Source: Rodentolepis nana
Taxonomy: Eukaryota > Platyhelminthes > Cestoda > Cyclophyllidea > Hymenolepididae
Reading direction: 5' to 3'
Assembly (NCBI GenBank): GCA_900617975.1
Contig: UZAE01001125.1
Coordinates: 1 to 15,084 of the forward strand
DNA length: 15,084 nt
Position numbers and translations under genes: made by a program. The notes under the pieces are model-generated. The model saw only the letters and a program-made list of their open reading frames with translations, did no database searches and was not told the DNA's origin. Positions 3,288 through 14,621 of the stretch are shown here, piece by piece (position 1 is the first letter of the stretch; the number at the start of each line of letters is the position of its first letter).

Positions 3288-3611
3288 ATTTATTTGCTTA
3301 TTCCAATGACAGGCGTTTTGATAATTATCATTAGCCCTTAAATTGACTTCGGGCTTCACAGAGGAGAGGAACTTCAAAGTGAGAAAAGTCGAAAGAGGGA
3401 ATAGAAGAATGAATCACAAATGAAAAGAGATAGACAGACACAAAGGTAGAGGAAAAGGTAAGGTGAGTATTGTGGAAGTGGTCGAATATGACAAATAGTC
3501 GGGCCATAGTAGATTGAAATCAGAAGTCAACTGCCGGTTAGTAGACTTTTTGCCGTATGAGTATACGCTGCTCAGGGTGCACCACATGAAGGTTAGTCTA
3601 TCGCACACCCC
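3288..3611 (-). mobile_element. SINE-like retroposon, copy C
   Basis: Near full-length copy in antisense orientation. On the + strand it starts with the tail complement (TTTATTTG...ATGACAGGCGTTTTGATAATTATC) and ends with the head complement GTCTATCGCACACCCC at 3611. I could not find a convincing target-site duplication, so this may be an older copy. The minus-strand frame at 3414-3608 is repeat sequence, not a gene. Confidence 0.85.
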
Positions 3612-4083: not shown

Positions 4084-4180
4084 ATTTTGAGAAGGTGCGT
4101 AGCGGACACGCTTGCCTGGCAAAACACCTTCACGGATTGGGAGTATACACTCAACCCACATGCCCCCTATGTAACCTACA

Positions 4181-4586
4181 GGAGGAAATGGAGAAGACCT
4201 ACCTGATTCGGTGTTCAAAGGAGGAAATGGAGAAGACCCACCTGATTCGGTGTCTAGCGGAGGAAATGGTGATGACCCACCTGATTCGGTGTCCAGCTCT
4301 AAAGACAACGGCAGACCCACCTGATTCGGTGTCCAGCTCTAAAGACAAGGACATGGAGTCTGATTGTGAAACCTACAGGAGGAAATGGAGAAGACCCATC
4401 TGATTCTCTACAGGAGAAAATGGAGAAGACCCACCTGATTCGGTGTTCAAAGGAGGAAATGGAGAAGACCCACCTGATTCGGTGTCTAGCGGAGGAAATG
4501 GTGATGACCCACCTGATTCGGTGTCCAGCTCTAAAGACAACGTTGAAATGGAGAAGACCTACCTGATTCGGTGTCCAGCCCTAAAG
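4181..4586 (+). repeat. Minisatellite within the LINE C-terminal coding region
   Basis: Nine units of 35-51 bp plus one 28-bp linker (4350-4377), with core GGAGGAAATGGAGAAGACC followed by ACCTGATTCGGTGT. Units begin at 4181, 4220, 4259, 4310, 4378, 4413, 4452, 4491 and 4542. A higher-order 39+39+51 block at 4181-4309 recurs almost exactly at 4413-4541. In protein terms the unit is EEMEKTHLIRC plus two residues, so the terminal His/Cys motif of the LINE has been multiplied. Confidence 0.85.
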
Positions 4587-4598
4587 TTTAAGGACTAA

Positions 4599-4645
4599 TG
4601 ATAAATATCACAAAGCCTGCCATTTGAAATAAATTAATAATAATA
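4599..4645 (+). repeat. LINE 3' tail shared with the SINE family
   Basis: Right after the LINE stop codon comes TGATAAATATCACAAAGCC then TGCCATTTGAAATAAATTAA and TAA repeats. The SINE copies end GCTAATGATAACTATCAAAA then CGCCTGCCATTTGAAATAAATAAAT. The two align over about 45 bp, starting with the CTAATGATAA that contains the LINE stop, with only a few differences. Confidence 0.75.
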
Positions 4646-4838
4646 ATTTTGAGAGTCATTTCAACTCGTTTGTGCCTATTTCTGAATGAATGGATTGTTG
4701 AAAGCATATTTACATAGCTTTACATTTTTAGAATACTAAGATATTGTAAGTTTTATTTTCCATTTTAAAATACCCCTTAGTTATTAAATGCTTATTAGCG
4801 GTCAATATAATGCGCTTAGCTGAAAGGCTGTCTATTTG

Positions 4839-4936: not shown

Positions 4937-7900
4937 GTAAGTAAATGCCTATTGTCAATTTCAAAGTTTTCTCGGGAATAAAAAACAATGAATTAGGAAA
5001 CATTTTTGTTTCTCATTTAAGGCACTTATTCAAGGAGTTATACTCACAATCGCACTAATTTCACCGGCGGCATCTCTGAAAACCGTAATTAATAATTTTA
5101 TAGCATTTAATCAACATATTTTAAAGCATGAAGTGTCAGAAAAAAAACTAAATTAAAATTTGAAATTTTTAAATTTTGTCCTTTCAGGAGGATTTTTGGA
5201 GACACTTACTGGAGGACATGAGGAAACCCAAAGTCCGCATTGATGAAAGTGAGTTATCATACGCAAACCAATTTGAAATGATTAATAATAGCAATTTTTG
5301 TTCTTTAAGTAACTCTGTTTGCAATTTAAAAAAAACCCTTTGAAATTTACAAATATACATTAACTTCATTTAAAAATTCATCGGAATATTTATCTCCAAA
5401 TCAGCCGGAAAATTACTTTCCAATCTTATTGATTACTTTCCAATAAATAAATCAAACATTTACACATCTTTAAAGGCCCTATTAAAATTTACTGTTAAAA
5501 CCTTGAAATTAAAAATAAGTTAGTTAATAAGTAAATTGGATAGTTTATTCTTAATGTATTTGTCTTAACTTTTATAAGTTTAATTACATAAAGTCGCCTG
5601 AGATAATAATGAACAAGTTGCGCGCATTAAATTTGCTAATCCATCGGAAAATACTAAATTGGAAAGCTACCATATTTTTTTGCTATTTCGAAGTTTGTTC
5701 GATGGTAAGGTTATTCAAGAACTATTTTAAAACAGTCCTAATGCTGCCGTCATCAGATAAAGGCATAAAGTTGAAAAGAAATAAGCCGAAATTCTAAAAT
5801 TTACAGTTACAAGGACAGCATTTACTTGAGAAATTGTTGGTGTATACAATACAAATATTCCTATTACAGCCACATTTATCAAGTATTTTCAATTGTTCTT
5901 CTGACTTATATGGTAAACTTATTAACAATTCGCGTAAATTTTGTAAAGAAAGAAAACGTCTTTTATTGTTATGTCGATCCCATATTGCATCTATATTTAA
6001 TACCTCACTGCATCTTATTTCTCAAACAGGGTAACTTTGTCATTGAGCTGTTTGATTACTTTAATATTATTCAGCGTTTTACAATTAAATTAAAGTAATA
6101 ATGAAAAATCGGAAATAACATTTAAGTTTTAACCAATATGTGCCTAATTTCTTCTATAAATGAAGGAATAAGATTGCTATTTTTCCTCAATATTTGAGAC
6201 AAATTAGAATGAATATTTTATATCATTGCTTAATAATTTTATAAAGTATTTCAAAACATACCTCATCTCTTAAAAAAATATCTAGACTTATATATTTTTT
6301 TAATAAATGCACGTTTAGCTATTTTCGTTTAATTCATTAAATATGACAATAATGTTGCCTGATTAATGTTGGTAAATAAAAATTATTAGGTTTGAAAATT
6401 TGAACAATTTAATAAGTGGAATTAATTCCCAATCGAGACTAGCGTTAGTTGAATTTCAAGCTTAAATGAAATTACAAAAACGGGTTCAAGGAATTTATTT
6501 TTCATTGATTTTTTCACCCTTTAATAAGCTCAGCGGGTTTCTATTGGGCCTTTTAACGATTTTTTCAAAATTTTGTTCCATTAATTTAGTTGATCTGCTG
6601 GCACGCAGGTTTAATTTCACATATCGTCACAGACTATTTCAACTTTTACGCCAAAACGAATTAGTGAAGTGAAACAAGTGGATATGGAGTGTGAATTTTG
6701 CCTAAAGGTGAACTCAGTTTCCGAACAAATTTAGTAAGCCCGAGTGTCGAAGGCAACAATTCAGGACTTAAGATTCCCGATCACTGAATGAATTCATGCA
6801 TACCGAGTTAGAATTCCGTTTCTTAGGTGACTTATTGAAGTGGTAGATGTTGAAATATTTTATTGTCCATTAAAAGTTTTTTTTCTATTTTATTCAGGAC
6901 AACTCTTTATTTCTTCCTATTGGTAGGTAATTAATTTTTATTTAATAAAAACTAGTCTAACATATCATTCACACACGCTTTATAACCTGCTTGACGGTGA
7001 CGAGAAGACAGCCGAAGACATTAACTACTTTCTTCCTATAATTCATCTAGTTCAATTTTTATTTATTTCAAATGGCAGGCGTTTTGATAGTTATCATTGG
7101 CCCTTTACCTGACTTCGGGCTTCACAGAGGGTAGGAACAGGCAAAGTCACAAAATGTTGATAGGAAAACAGAAGTGTTTCACAGAATTAAAAGAGACAGA
7201 CACAAAGGTAGTAAAAAGGTGAGGTGATTACTGTGGAAGGGGTCGAATGTGGCATACAGTGGGGTGATGGTAGTTTGAAGTGAGAAGTCAACTATACAGT
7301 GGGGTGATGGTAGTTTGAAGTGAGAAGTCAACTACCAGTCAATAGACTTTTTTCCGCATAAGTATACGTTGCCCAGGGTGCACCACATGGAGGTTGTAAG
7401 TACACGTTGCCCAGGGTGCACCACGTGGAGGTATGCCGTTTGAGTATACGTTGCCCATTGGTTTATAGACTTGTTTGCCGTATGAGTATACGTTGCCCGT
7501 CAATGGGGTGATGGTAGTTTGAAGTGAGAAGTCAACTGCCACAATGGGGTCATGGTAGTTTGAAGTTAGAAGTCAACTGCCTTTAATAGACTTTTTTGCC
7601 GTATGAGTATACGTTGCCCAGCGGTTTATAGACTTTTTGCCGTATGAGGTCTGTTGCCCAAATATGACATACAGTGGGGTCATGGTAGTTTGAAGTCAGA
7701 GGTCAACTGCCGGTTTATAGACTTTTTGCCGTGTTAGGGTTAGATCAACTGCCGGTTTATAGACTTTTTTGCCGTATGCGCATACACAATGACATACAGT
7801 GGGGTGATGGTAGTTTGAAGTGAGAAGTTGTGACATATAGTGGGGTGAGGGTAGTTTGAAGTCAGAAGTCCACTGCCGGTTTATAGACTTTTTGCCGTAT

Positions 7901-10900
7901 GAGTATACTTTGTAACATACAGTGGGGTCATGGTAGTTTGAAGTCAGAAGTCAAGGCATACAGTGGGGTCATGGTAGTTTGAAGTCAGTGGTCAACTATA
8001 CAGTGGGGTGATGGTAGTTTGAAGTGAGAAGTCAACTACCAGTCAATAGACTTTTTTCCGCATAAGTATACGTTGCCCAGGGTGCACCACATGGAGGTTG
8101 TAAGTACACGTTGCCCAGGGTGCACCACGTGGAGGTATGCCGTTTGAGTATACGTTGCCCATTGGTTTATAGACTTGTTTGCCGTATGAGTATACGTTGC
8201 CCGTCAATGGGGTGATGGTAGTTTGAAGTGAGAAGTCAACTGCCACAATGGGGTCATGGTAGTTTGAAGTTAGAAGTCAACTGCCTTTAATAGACTTTTT
8301 TGCCGTATGAGTATACGTTGCCCAGCGGTTTATAGACTTTTTGCCGTATGAGGTCTGTTGCCCAAATATGACATACAGTGGGGTCATGGTAGTTTGAAGT
8401 CAGAGGTCAACTGCCGGTTTATAGACTTTTTGCCGTGTTAGGGTTAGATCAACTGCCGGTTTATAGACTTTTTTGCCGTATGCGCATACACAATGACATA
8501 CAGTGGGGTGATGGTAGTTTGAAGTGAGAAGTTGTGACATATAGTGGGGTGAGGGTAGTTTGAAGTCAGAAGTCCACTGCCGGTTTATAGACTTTTTGCC
8601 GTATGAGTATACTTTGTAACATACAGTGGGGTCATGGTAGTTTGAAGTCAGAAGTCAAGATGTCAACTGCCGATTAATAGACTTTTTTGCCGTATGAGAA
8701 GTGATAAGTCAACTGCCGGTTAATAGACTTTTTTGCCGTATGAGTGGGTTGCCCAGGGTGCACCGCGTGGAGGTAAGTCTATCGCAACAACTGCCGGTTA
8801 ATAGACTTTTTTGCCGTATGAGTATACGGTGCCCAGGGTGCACCACGTGGAGGTAAGTCTAAATATACATTGCCCAGGGTGCACCACGGAGGTAAGTCTA
8901 TTGCACACCCCATGATACCTATCATAACGCCTGCCATTTGAAACCACACCCCATTTTGTTCAATATAATTTATAATTTTAATCACTTTAACATTCGGTAT
9001 ACCTATCAATACCTTCAAAGAGGCATAATTAACATAATTTGATCTCTGAAATTTTGGTTGAGTTCACTATTCATTTTGCTCAGATCCTTACATCAGCTGA
9101 TTCAATTAAATTTTTTTTCTCTTATTTTAATATTTACTTCCATTCTCGCAATAACGACCAAGTGTGCTCATTTAACAATGAAATTTAAGTTAAGGTAGAT
9201 CTTACTAGAATCTGCTCAAAATGAATTTTCTAATAATAATTGATGAATATTATACAAATGCCTTGTGCAGTTCTGACTCGTATAATATGAATGAAGAATA
9301 AAAATTCTAGTTTCCCTGAAATAACCTTGACGACACTCATTATGCAAGATATTTGGACATTATAAATAGCAAAAGTAGAAAAGTTGCACCAAAGTGTCAT
9401 CCTTAAATATGCCAAATTCTAAGCAGAATTTACACAGTTCGACAAGGAATTATTGACGTGAAGTAAGCTTAATCAGAAACCGATATATTTATTTATTAAT
9501 ATCAAATGTCAGGCGTTTTTACATTTATAATTAGCCCTGGAGCTGACTTTGGGGCTTCACAAAGAGGTGAAGGAACATCAAAGTAACAAAAAGTCGAGAG
9601 GGGGAACAGATGTAAAAGAGACAGACAGACAGACACAAAGGCAGATGAAAGGTGACGTGTGTACTGTGGAAGGGGTCGAATATGACAAATAGTCGGGCCA
9701 TAGTAGTTTGAAGTCAGAAGTCAACTGCCGATCGATAGACATTTTTACCGGATGAGTATACGTTGCCCAGTGTGCACCATGTGGAATTAAGTCTATTGCG
9801 CACCCCAGAAACCGATATATTTATATAATGCATAATCAATGAAGAGAGGATTTTTAATTTTAATTTTAATTTTTTTTTCAATTCAAAAAGCTATTAGGGA
9901 ACACTGTGGCCGAAGCCGCTATCATTCAACTGACGTCTCCAAGCGCATTGTTGGCGGCGTTGAATCGCGACAGTTTGAGTGGCCGTGGCTCGTTTCAATC
10001 CAAATTAAATCTGAAGAACCGGTATGAATTTGAAATTTTTTCATCTAAAGCATAAAGTCAAAATTGTTCATATTGTGCAAAAAAAAATCATTTTTTTACC
10101 TTTTACCAACACTATTAATGCCTTTATTGAATTATCACAAGCATGCAAAAAAACATAGTATCCCATGAATAATTTTTATGAGAATTCCGAATTTTCTCTT
10201 AATTAGCCTCTGTATTCCATTATATAAAATTATTTTATTTATTTAATTCCCTATGCTTAGACTATTATTAATAATTCATACACAATATTTGCTTCGTGAA
10301 AAAATTAATGGAATAGAAGAATAAGGCGTGAATCATTAGTAAAATAAACCTATTTATTTAAGGAATGTTGAAAATTGGCAAATGGATAGTCTCTTTTAAA
10401 TTTCAACAGCCTAAAATGAGAGCTCATTTTTGCGTATTTTTCTGATTTCGATATCTAATTTCGAGGACCAAAATTGATTTTTAAAGAAACGTTGTTCAAT
10501 GGACTGCTTTGTATGAAAAATCATATCCATTAGCACATTACATAGAACGAGCGGTTTGCATGGAAGTTTTTCTTTATCGAAAGATAAAATTTTCAGGAAT
10601 TAACTAGTTTTGGTTGAAAATATTTGGTCTTATCAGACTTTTGGTCCTGCATTTATACAAGTTTTGCTGTTCAATTTAGCCAATTTTCCCATTTAATTGA
10701 TGAGGAACAGAGGTGGCACATTACCCTTTCAAAAATTATTCCAAAATTAAAATGGAGTCGAAGAACCAGTCCAACCTGAACATTCATTTCGGAAATGTTA
10801 TTTTGGAAATACGATTTTATATACTAACTTTTTCATAATTTAAGCGTTGGTTTAAACTGAATACTTCCAAAATGGAGTATCTTCTTCTTCTTCTAATTAA

Positions 10901-13900
10901 AGAGGGGGTCTTGATGTGAATATTCACTTTTCAGAACGTCAATTTAGACGCATTCAACGCTTGCATTCGCTTGCAATCGCACAGTCTGCCTAAACAACCA
11001 CATTTGACCACTTTTCTGCACTTTCCAAGAACCCTCCAAGTTCTCTAGTCTTTCAATGAGATCTTCAGCTGTCACCTCTTGGCATTCTGGCTTGAATAAA
11101 AGGGAGTATCTCAGTCGGACTAGAGAAATATCTCGGCTGAGATTGATGATGCCTTAGTTACAATAAAATGTCGTGCTTAAGACCAATACACTCACGTCTA
11201 AATATATTTCAAGTAATAAAAATAAACCTATTTGACACCAAGGGGAGAAAATCTTTTGTTCCCCATATAAATATACATATATTGTTTAGAGCAATAAAAT
11301 GTAGATTTAATTATCAAAATATTTTCGTCCATGAATTATAAAATAGGCCAATGGAAGAGGTCGCGCAATAAAATCGGTACTTTCACTGGAGTTGAGTACT
11401 TTAAAAAAACAAAATTAGCTATCAAAATAATCAATAATAGGCGTAGTTTTTTAAAAGGAAATTTCCTTAAGTTCTGTTGACCAAAGTTAAAAATATTTAC
11501 AAGTTGTTATCTTGTAGATGAGATACTAGAAAAAGTTATCAGAACACCTACCTTTAGAACGTTAAATCAATTACTTTTTATATTCGCATTCCTGCATTTG
11601 CTCCTTTCGACAATCTTAAAGTCAATAGCAGTGAATGCTCAAGATATTGTGAGTACAGGACACTGTTTTATTTTAAAATTTTGGCCCTATTTGAGTTATA
11701 ACATTCTTATCAATAACAGAGTGGCTTAGGTAATCCAATGAAACCCAAAATATCTCCACGTTATAATTTTAAGAAAAATTGTACCTGGCAATCATTAAGG
11801 TTCATAAACTTTATTTATTTCAAATGACAGGTGTTTTGATAGTCATCATTACCCCTTTAGCTGACTTCGGGCTTCACAGAGGGGAGGAGGAACATCAAAG
11901 TGGCTTCACAGAGGGGAGGAGGAACATCAAAGTGAGAAAAAGTTGAGAGGGGAGGGGAACAGAAGGGTGATTCACAGATGCAAGAAAGACAGTTACAAAG
12001 GTAGAAAAAAGGTGAAGTGAGTACTGTGGAATTAGTCGAATATGGCATACAGTGGGGTGATGGTAGTTTGAAGTCAGAAGTCAACTGCCAGTTAATTTGA
12101 CATTTTGCCATACGAGTATACGTTGCCCAGGGTGTACCACGTGGAGGCAAGTCTATAGCACACCCCTCATTAAATTGAATTAAATATCATAGGAGTAATT
12201 TGTATTAAATATCTATGGAAAAGTGCTATATGTATTTGCAAAATACTCGTCAGATAGAAACTGCATCTCAAAGCTGTTAAGATCGTTTATTTTCCCCCAT
12301 TTCTGCAGACTAGGAACTCAATATCAAGACGAAGCGATGATCGCCTGGAATACTTAATAGAACAACTTCAAGCAAATCCAAAGTTATTCGAACAATTGTT
12401 AAAATTGCAGAAGATGAAGGCAGCTTCTGCACCAACCAACGGTTCATCGCGCACCAGTCATTCAAAACTCGTTGGTCATGTCTGCGGAGGTTCACTTATC
12501 AGTCCGTCTTGGATTCTAACTGCCAGACATTGCTTTGAGTAAGATATATTTAAATTCCACAATGGATAGTCGCTTTTAAAATAAATTGTTGCCGTACCTT
12601 GAGTTATCATGGCAACTACTAACTAGCCAACATTCTCTAAGGAAGCGTTTCAAGCCGCAATGGAACCCCCACTATGTATTCCTTATTCTGTATTTGCGGA
12701 ACGGAGAAGACTTTCTAATTCTAACATATTTAGTTGGCTAATAAACCATAGTAACATCACTTGAACAAAATATAATATTTAGTTATTTATTTATTTCAGG
12801 CGTTTTGATAGTTATCATTAGCCCTTTAGTTGACTTCAGGCTTCACAGAGGGAGGAGGAACATCAAAGTGAATAAAGTCGAGCGACAGACAGACAGATAC
12901 AAAGGCAGAGAAAAGGTATGATGAGTACTGTGAAAGTGGTGAAATATGACATACAGCCAGTGGTGTCATGGCAGTTTGAAGTGAGAAGTCAGCTGTCGGT
13001 TAATAGACTTTTTGCCCTTTGGGTATATGTTGCCCAGGGAGCACCACGCGGAGGTAAGTCTATCACACACGCCATAAAATATGAAAAGAATATCCATAAT
13101 ATAAGAGAACAAGAAGAGGTGCGTGTCAAAGTCACGTTGGTCTAACTTAATCCGAAACGGAAGAGACAGGATCATCAGAGGACGAGGCTAGTAACTTGAT
13201 TAGAATTGCTGTGCACAAGTAATTAACTCTCAATATCACAACGAAGTCATCAAATGTTATTGTTATTGGCACTTTCAGTTAACAAACAGTAAAGATTAAG
13301 ACTTTTTTTAAAATATTATGCACAAAAGACAATTTGATCATGATTTATTATTTTAATGTAAATAAATATTACACGCACCTTAAGGAATAAAGTGCCTTCG
13401 TATTATTTGAATTTACAAAAAAAATGCTGTGACAATAAAATTTTTGATTATATGGGTATTTTAGCCAATGTTCTCTATGAAGACACTATTTCACAATTCT
13501 TTTCATTACATCTTATTTGTTAATAAATTGATAATTAAATACCGTTATTTATTTGTTTACAAAATATACGTAGGATTCCACCACGAGGTGTCACAACTGC
13601 CTGATAACTCTAATACTTGAACAGTTAGTCCAAACAATTCCCACTGTCATTGAGACACAAATCGACTTATTTAAAAAAACAAAAAATAAATAAATTATGA
13701 TAAATGACAAATTCATGGCTCCTCTCTTAGTGGTGGAACTTGATCACGGCATGGAAGAGTCGAAACGATATAAAAGAACACACGATGAACTTATAAATCT
13801 TTCAGATTACGAAAATACATTTACTTTTAAATTAATTTACCAAAATTATAAATACAACGGAATAGATTCAATGCCTTCTTATATTTAATAAAAAATTTCA

Positions 13901-14183: not shown

Positions 14184-14304
14184 GTGAGTGGGCGTGATGA
14201 GTCTATTATTGTATTAAGTGCATTAATCTAATTGTCTTAAGCAGGAATGTGAGTAGAGTGGGGAGGCGTAGTTTTTTGTCATTACATCTCGCTTTTGCTA
14301 CAAA

Positions 14305-14621
14305 TTTATTTATATCAAATGGCAAGCTTTATGATAGTTATCATTAGCCCATTAGTTGACTTCAAGCTTCACAGAGGAAGAGGAACATCAAATCGAAAAA
14401 AGTCTAGGGGGGTTGAACAGAAGAGTGTTTAAAGATTTTAAAAAGACAGACAGACACAAAGGTAGAGAAAAAGGTAAGATGAGAACTGTGGAAGGGGTCG
14501 AATATGACAAATAGTCGAGCCATGGTAGTTTGAAGTCAACTGCCGATAAATAGACTTTTTTACCGTATGAGTATACGTTGCCCAGGGTGCCCCACGTGGA
14601 GGTAAGTCTATCGCACACCCC
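14305..14621 (-). mobile_element. SINE-like retroposon, copy I
   Basis: Near full-length antisense copy from the tail (TTTATTTATATCAAATGGCAAGC) to the head end TCGCACACCCC at 14621. It keeps the GGAGGTAAGTC head motif at 14599-14609. No clear target duplication was found. Overlapping open frames at 14388-14659 on the minus strand are repeat translations. Confidence 0.87.

Follow-up and report, generated by a model that had tools for sequence, protein, structure and literature searches.

The window analysed here, 15,084 nucleotides of contig UZAE01001125.1 of the tapeworm Rodentolepis nana, contains the 3' end of a 5'-truncated LINE and several copies of a repeat of about 325 nt, referred to below as the short family. 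The LINE fragment (positions 4093-4645, plus strand) consists of a zf-RVT coding remnant, a 39-bp tandem expansion, and a 3' tail. The zf-RVT remnant is matched by PF13966 with E=0.0023 and 19 bits, below the 27.5-bit Pfam cut-off; the 39-bp unit belongs to the LINE coding end and is repeated about nine times, forming the array at 4178-4527. The consensus of the LINE 3' end matches positions 4120-4634 piecewise, at 94-98% identity. The tail proper, followed by an (AAT)n run, occupies 4583-4645 on the plus strand, and its first 52 nt (4583-4634) are 98% identical to consensus positions 216-267; the short-family consensus matches the same tail at 90% over 49 nt (4590-4638). Consensus positions 108-215 are absent from this copy, which amounts to a 108-bp deletion with AAAG at its junction (4583-4586). 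In other LINE copies the ORF ends with ...CPALKTTTESQRYWEARRRLMNCY and a stop codon, after which comes a 3' UTR about 103 nt long; the sequence CPALKFKD-stop, which an earlier note on this DNA took for the end of the LINE ORF, is the deletion junction of the copy in the window and not the ORF end of the family.

The 9-nt sequence ATTTTGAGA is found immediately on both sides of the fragment, at 4084-4092 and at 4646-4654, as a putative target-site duplication, and the LINE fragment and its tail look like one insertion on this account. Taken alone, the repeat is modest evidence, because 1.8% of random pairs of same-size stretches share at least 9 nt. The LINE coding end is prone to tandem expansion elsewhere as well: in another genomic copy (L010 and L083 being one and the same) it is a neighbouring unit (...PSQIGSIHSTHM...) that is repeated.

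The short family is represented in the window by full-length copies at 3292-3611 (83% identity over 327 columns), 9491-9806 (with a 19-nt repeat at both flanks), 11810-12166 (with one 32-bp internal duplication) and 14304-14621 (90% over 326 columns), and by a near-full-length copy at 12783-13073, all on the minus strand. On the plus strand, the copy at 54-333 lacks its first 46 nt and has the tail (84% identity to positions 47-325 of the 325-nt consensus), and the copy at 727-1247 has the 5' ribozyme region (see below) and internal tandem repeats, the tail being missing. A further minus-strand copy has its 5' end at 8911 and its tail at 7058, with a large tandem array of ribozyme and head segments in between; it is swollen to 1.85 kb, and a segment of about 700 bp is present in it twice (99% identity over the 300 nt reported). 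Adjoining the 5' end of this copy, a tail-only fragment of 32 nt (8912-8943, plus strand), matched by the short-family consensus alone, lies between two CACACCCCA repeats and is perhaps an extreme case of a 5'-truncated insertion. Each of the seven short copies that have a tail is matched at its end by the LINE 3' consensus, at 267-329 on the plus strand and at 3301-3350, 7061-7116, 9495-9538, 11813-11868, 12785-12844 and 14308-14370 on the minus strand, in agreement with the earlier note, which had seen the LINE tail at the end of every such copy.

Two pieces of the window resemble exons of a trypsin-type serine protease, at 9912-10022 (plus strand, with an IVGG motif recognized by eye) and at 12258-12542 (plus strand, Pfam Trypsin, E=2.1e-8), and several short copies appear, by eye, to be located within or beside presumed introns of such a gene. 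A search of a plasmid collection with one short copy gave no match.

We searched the 107-Mb assembly that contains the window contig. The LINE encodes an endonuclease (locus L029, PF14529, E=1.2e-13), a reverse transcriptase (L091, PF00078, E=4.3e-27), an RNase H (L012, E=1.6e-12) and a zf-RVT-like end (L018, E=0.0037, below the cut-off), these domains being located in different copies. On contig C2222, a match to the endonuclease, a match to the reverse-transcriptase ORF and the tail follow one another along a single strand, in the order given, over about 3.1 kb. The trypanosomatid element L1Tc likewise codes for an endonuclease, a reverse transcriptase and an RNase H. Named relatives of the LINE reverse transcriptase (query L091:1852-3015, minus strand) outside tapeworms include, among the matches listed, sequences from spiders and a cockroach, about 43-57% identical along a part of the query; unnamed metagenome records are listed as well. 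Endonuclease matches led to 20 LINE 5' regions; 17 of them have differing flanks (by eye) followed by a complete or near-complete start GGGGTGCGCGATAGACTT..., and in the other three the start is lost or rearranged. In the consensus of LINE 5' regions, the ATG at which the ORF starts is at 103 nt.

The tail is widespread. Window positions 4540-4660 gave 67 listed matches in the genome (1,776 first-look candidates, 40 of them scored), and exact 39-mer tails number 66 for the LINE type and 208 for one short-family type, with no occurrences of the controls. When the bases that precede the tail are included in the pattern, i.e., TTTAA for the LINE and CTAAA for the short family, there are 202 LINE-type and 1,418 short-type exact tails, and none for the reversed-pattern controls; the short family is far more numerous than the LINE. 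The collected loci contain 108 distinct tails, 60 of the short family, 44 of the LINE and four others, and on reading, four of the 60 proved to belong to something other than plain short copies. A sample independent of the tail was obtained by picking 14 divergent LINE copies by a piece of the reverse-transcriptase ORF. Nine of these reach the zf-RVT end, and eight of the nine carry the tail, the ninth being without its last part; the other five stretches include neither zf-RVT nor tail. The concern that LINE 3' UTRs elsewhere might lack the tail is thus not borne out by copies chosen regardless of it, and the expectation of at least 40 bp of shared tail across many loci is exceeded by the two consensus sequences, which share about 65 nt.

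The similarity between the two families extends to their other end. The short-family and LINE 3' consensus sequences align over 65 columns with a local score of 87 (the best of 500 shuffles scores 32), and the 5' consensus sequences align over 97 columns with a score of 128 (best of 500 shuffles, 25). The first ~97 nt of the short family correspond to the LINE 5' UTR, starting at the identical first base. In L070 and L084, two of the four exceptions among the 60 short-family tails, a head of the short-family kind runs straight into the LINE endonuclease ORF, and the LINE tail is found at the end. The middle of the short family, about 160 nt, gave nothing beyond matches of 9-20 nt with E of at least 1.7 when compared to the LINE parts collected, which do not make up the whole LINE, and a LINE origin of the middle was rejected within this scope. 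Since both ends match the LINE and nothing in the LINE parts compared resembles the middle, the short family appears to consist of both LINE ends around other material; if that holds, it is a composite, like the R2/R1 hybrids discussed below. L070, L084 and a set of copies of about 140 nt contain, by appearance, LINE sequence only. As the tail and the first ~100 nt are both shared with the LINE, the short family is best read, on its sequence, as a stripped-down relative of the LINE that would borrow the LINE machinery, i.e., as a SIDE (short internally deleted element), with homology to the LINE at the 5' end and at the 3' end, and not as a SINE transcribed by RNA polymerase III. Of the pair of an autonomous LINE and a non-autonomous SINE that was proposed earlier, the LINE and a short partner with a shared tail are supported throughout the genome; the classification of the partner as a SINE is not supported, its head being the LINE 5' UTR.

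The shared 5' end has a structure of its own. The core of HDV-like ribozymes is a nested double pseudoknot made of P1, P2, P3, P1.1 and P4, with a catalytic C after P4. The first ~72 nt of the element can form P1 (GGGGUGU/GCACCCU), P2 (AUAGACU/AGUCUAU) and P3 (ACC/GGU) with the loop UCCACGU, and likewise P1.1 and P4 (CGUAU/AUACG), after which a C follows, so that the modelled fold has the nested double pseudoknot and the C at the place typical of this class. In the window, the fold is predicted at the 5' end of the copy 14304-14621 (14550-14619, minus strand), where the Rfam model RF02682 scores 34.7 bits (cut-off 44, E=2.3e-5) and RF00094 scores 29.5 bits (cut-off 50, E=0.0062); the catalytic-C position of this copy reads T, and its ribozyme is therefore probably inactive. 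We scanned 17 of the 20 LINE 5' loci, leaving out three. At E of up to 1, RF02682 is found in 15 of the 17 (best score 40.2 bits, E=4.6e-5) and RF00094 in 13 (best score 37.1 bits), every score being below the curated cut-offs of 44 and 50, respectively. The same scan produced 37 matches in all, nine of which are weak and belong to unrelated families.

Seventy rows out of 103 were chosen by hand, incomplete or rearranged starts being left out and one row (L015) covering part of the fold; in this alignment 93.9% of the cells of the 22-pair fold are paired, versus 30-53% when the fold is slid along the sequences. The 70 rows, which are very alike, contain no compensatory covariation. The catalytic position is C in 18 of 21 LINE rows and in 45 of 49 short rows. 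A pattern of the ribozyme core occurs 3,741 times in the genome and its control not at all, a count that includes both families and every unit of the arrays.

The tail, for its part, could fold into a small stem-loop (GGGCU/AGCCU and UGAU/AUCA). In an alignment of 70 of the 79 tails, 89.7% of the cells of this 9-pair stem are paired, versus 37-47% after sliding, and covariation was not found in the aligned tails. The tails of four sequences fold at 0.6-1.5 standard deviations below their shuffles (z from -0.6 to -1.5), which is ordinary stability. Because the stem-loop is conserved, yet neither unusually stable nor covarying, it is plausible, and we would put it no higher, that the tail is the recognition signal for the LINE protein.

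Signs of insertion accompany the elements. Exact flank repeats of at least 9 nt accompany 35 of the 63 elements in which both ends are present, compared to 2.4% in swapped flanks; 19 of the 35 are 12-14 nt long, a simple AAT repeat accounts for at least one, and for one of the 63 elements downstream sequence is missing. Among plain short copies, such repeats flank 33 of 58, and 25 are without an exact 9-nt repeat. Four separate insertions of about 140 nt (L079, L126, L127, which shares its site with L128, and L129) consist of the LINE 5' UTR fused to the tail. L127 and L129 are flanked by repeats of 13 and 12 nt; by eye, the repeat of L079 is imperfect and that of L126 is doubtful. L126 and L129 have one common junction and so may stem from one shortened source. 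L126 combines a LINE-type head with the short-type tail AACTATCATAAAGCC. In the chimera L020, a short-family body is continued by the LINE 3' UTR, and an 11-nt repeat flanks the whole, as expected from a template jump; when more short/LINE chimeras were sought at the poly-C stretch, none was found, and L020 is the sole case seen. The shortened and mixed copies suggest that the two ends suffice, and that RNAs of the short family and of the LINE can meet in one reaction.

We think it likely that the ~325-nt family is made of both LINE ends and a ~160-nt middle of other origin, and that this composite SIDE has been moved by the LINE in trans. In such a scheme, transcription of the element would often take place as part of a host transcript; cleavage by the 5' ribozyme at the first base of the element would leave a precise 5' end; and the LINE protein would recognize the 3' tail and, at a nick, copy the RNA by target-primed reverse transcription. 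The two LINE ends may have been joined by internal deletion or by template jumping. A stronger statement, which we make tentatively and would not yet bet on, is that a self-cleaving ribozyme at the 5' end and a tail at the 3' end could be all that a passenger needs for being copied by this LINE, everything in between being cargo. In this reading, the observed forms would make up a natural series, from the full LINE, through elements with the 5' UTR and the start of the endonuclease, to the 325-nt family with its foreign middle and to the ~140-nt elements without a middle, and arrays of several ribozymes would have spread as units. The abundant short repeat would then be a ribozyme-SIDE of an animal, dispersed in high copy number and released from transcripts of the host, not driven by RNA polymerase III.

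The most serious alternative, which we regard as unlikely though still worth keeping in mind, is that the short family was moved not by the LINE seen in the window but by a sister LINE with ends of the short type, now rare or unsampled. The two types of ends have fixed differences (GGGCAAC versus GGACAAC, and the loop AC versus AA), and the commonest short tail, AACTATCAAAACGCC, is carried by none of the 44 LINE-labelled tails (themselves chosen partly by their LINE-type tail), by none of the eight tail-independent ones, and by none of the 100 examined out of the 202 LINE-type tails; as this tail is seen on no LINE in those samples, the partner at present may be a sister LINE. The mixed copies, however, with a LINE-type head and a short-type tail in L126 and with a short body and a LINE tail in L020, are indicative of exchange between the two, the variant ATAAAGCC is common to the LINE and one short subfamily, and the LINE copies examined are a part of the total.

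The direction of descent could also be the reverse, the LINE having taken both of its ends from an older short ribozyme element. Short copies are indeed more diverged from their consensus, with a median of 7.8% (n=46) compared to 5.2% for LINE 3' ends (n=43, a sample biased low, as it was picked partly by exact tail match) and 3.8% for LINE 5' ends (n=16), and its middle portion shows no relation to the LINE parts compared in the case of the short family. On the other hand, the LINE is seen giving rise to shortened forms, those with an internal LINE fragment (L070, L084) and those with no middle (L079, L126, L127, L129), and we consider the reverse direction improbable. Even less can be said for a classical SINE that has a head of RNA polymerase III type and has taken its 3' tail from the LINE. 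The length of ~325 nt, the high copy number, the shared tail and the flanking duplications are SINE-like, and a TTCGA motif in the body resembles, by eye, part of a B box; but the head is the LINE 5' UTR, ARAGORN finds no tRNA and Rfam no match at the gathering cut-off in the window, and a whole short copy compared to Rfam at E of up to 5 is matched by the two HDV ribozyme models only, and by no tRNA, 5S or 7SL. A head of tRNA type was rejected on these grounds, and the short family seems to have neither a tRNA-, 5S- or 7SL-derived head nor an RNA polymerase III promoter, as far as can be judged from its sequence. Finally, chance adjacency of a LINE fragment and an old SINE tail is refuted by the 66 exact 39-mer LINE tails and the 202 with LINE-type flank against none in the controls, by the tail in eight of nine tail-independent LINE copies (the ninth lacking its last part), and by the single repeat that encloses the fragment with its tail in the window.

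Read as a composite SIDE moved by the LINE, the tapeworm family has several counterparts. The R2 SIDEs and R2/R1 hybrid SIDEs of Drosophila, described, in the available part of the source, as consisting of an HDV-like ribozyme at the 5' side and the 3' end of a LINE, as occupying fixed rDNA sites, and as rare (PMC3414825), share with it the two kinds of ends, the movement by the LINE in trans that is held to take place, and the hybrids and template jumps. Unlike them, the tapeworm family is dispersed (1,418 exact tails), has varied flank repeats, and contains a ~160-nt middle without a match in the LINE parts compared. In trypanosomatids, the Pr77 hallmark of L1Tc/NARTc and ingi/RIME is, according to the text accessible to us, a 5' HDV-like ribozyme of 77 nt found in long and short elements alike, and the short elements match both ends of their long partner (PMC4035085), as they do here; the host is unrelated to the tapeworm, and the likeness is one of build, as judged from descriptions. 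Promoter activity of the 5' end is reported as established for the trypanosomatid elements in the same text (PMC4035085).

The Persaeus SIDE of Lepidoptera, with the CR1 element Zenon as its partner, resembles the tapeworm family in its high copy number, its length of about 300 nt, its LINE-homologous regions, which include part of the 5' UTR, and its want of an RNA polymerase III head; its partner, however, is a CR1, its host belongs to another phylum, and the term HDV-like ribozyme does not occur in the paper on it (PMC6740152). For the zebrafish LINE ZfL2, with its stringent 3' tail, the proposed recognition site is a stem-loop whose binding was shown by assay, as described in the portion consulted (PMC4176376); the tapeworm tail, in comparison, has a stem, known from sequence, that is conserved but of ordinary stability and not covarying. 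In the tapeworm H. microstoma, transposable elements are given as 23% of the genome and LINEs as 1% in the available text (PMC7653826), and SIDEs are called a rarity among non-LTR retrotransposons in the accessible part of PMC6740152. Neither an HDV-like ribozyme of a tapeworm nor this LINE/short pair appears in the titles and abstracts of the best 4-15 papers listed per literature search, in a collection that includes a minority of subscription papers.

Set against these descriptions, the tapeworm SIDE seems to differ from the systems compared in that an HDV-like ribozyme and a middle of other origin go together with dispersed insertion in high copy number. A SIDE of this kind, with well over a thousand dispersed copies and with minimal versions occurring naturally, would reveal the two parts required by a LINE for moving a passenger, as well as a route to high copy number without an RNA polymerase III promoter. 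The analysis also corrects the SINE reading of the short repeat and points to the LINE behind it.

The SIDER2 elements of trypanosomatids have two Pr77 copies in tandem, according to the available text (PMC4035085); the tapeworm differs in having arrays made up of several ribozyme segments. Contigs C20, C26 and C73 also carry arrayed exact ribozyme cores, mostly at a spacing of 82-90 bp; the arrays of C26 and C73 have identical spacing (88, 82, 86) and identical variants, as if this array had spread as a unit. Tail-only insertions are observed at about position 1505 of L064 and at about position 1505 of L078; the latter is about 60 nt long, has ATTCAGATTTG on both sides, and mixes an upstream part of the short type with a tail of the LINE type.
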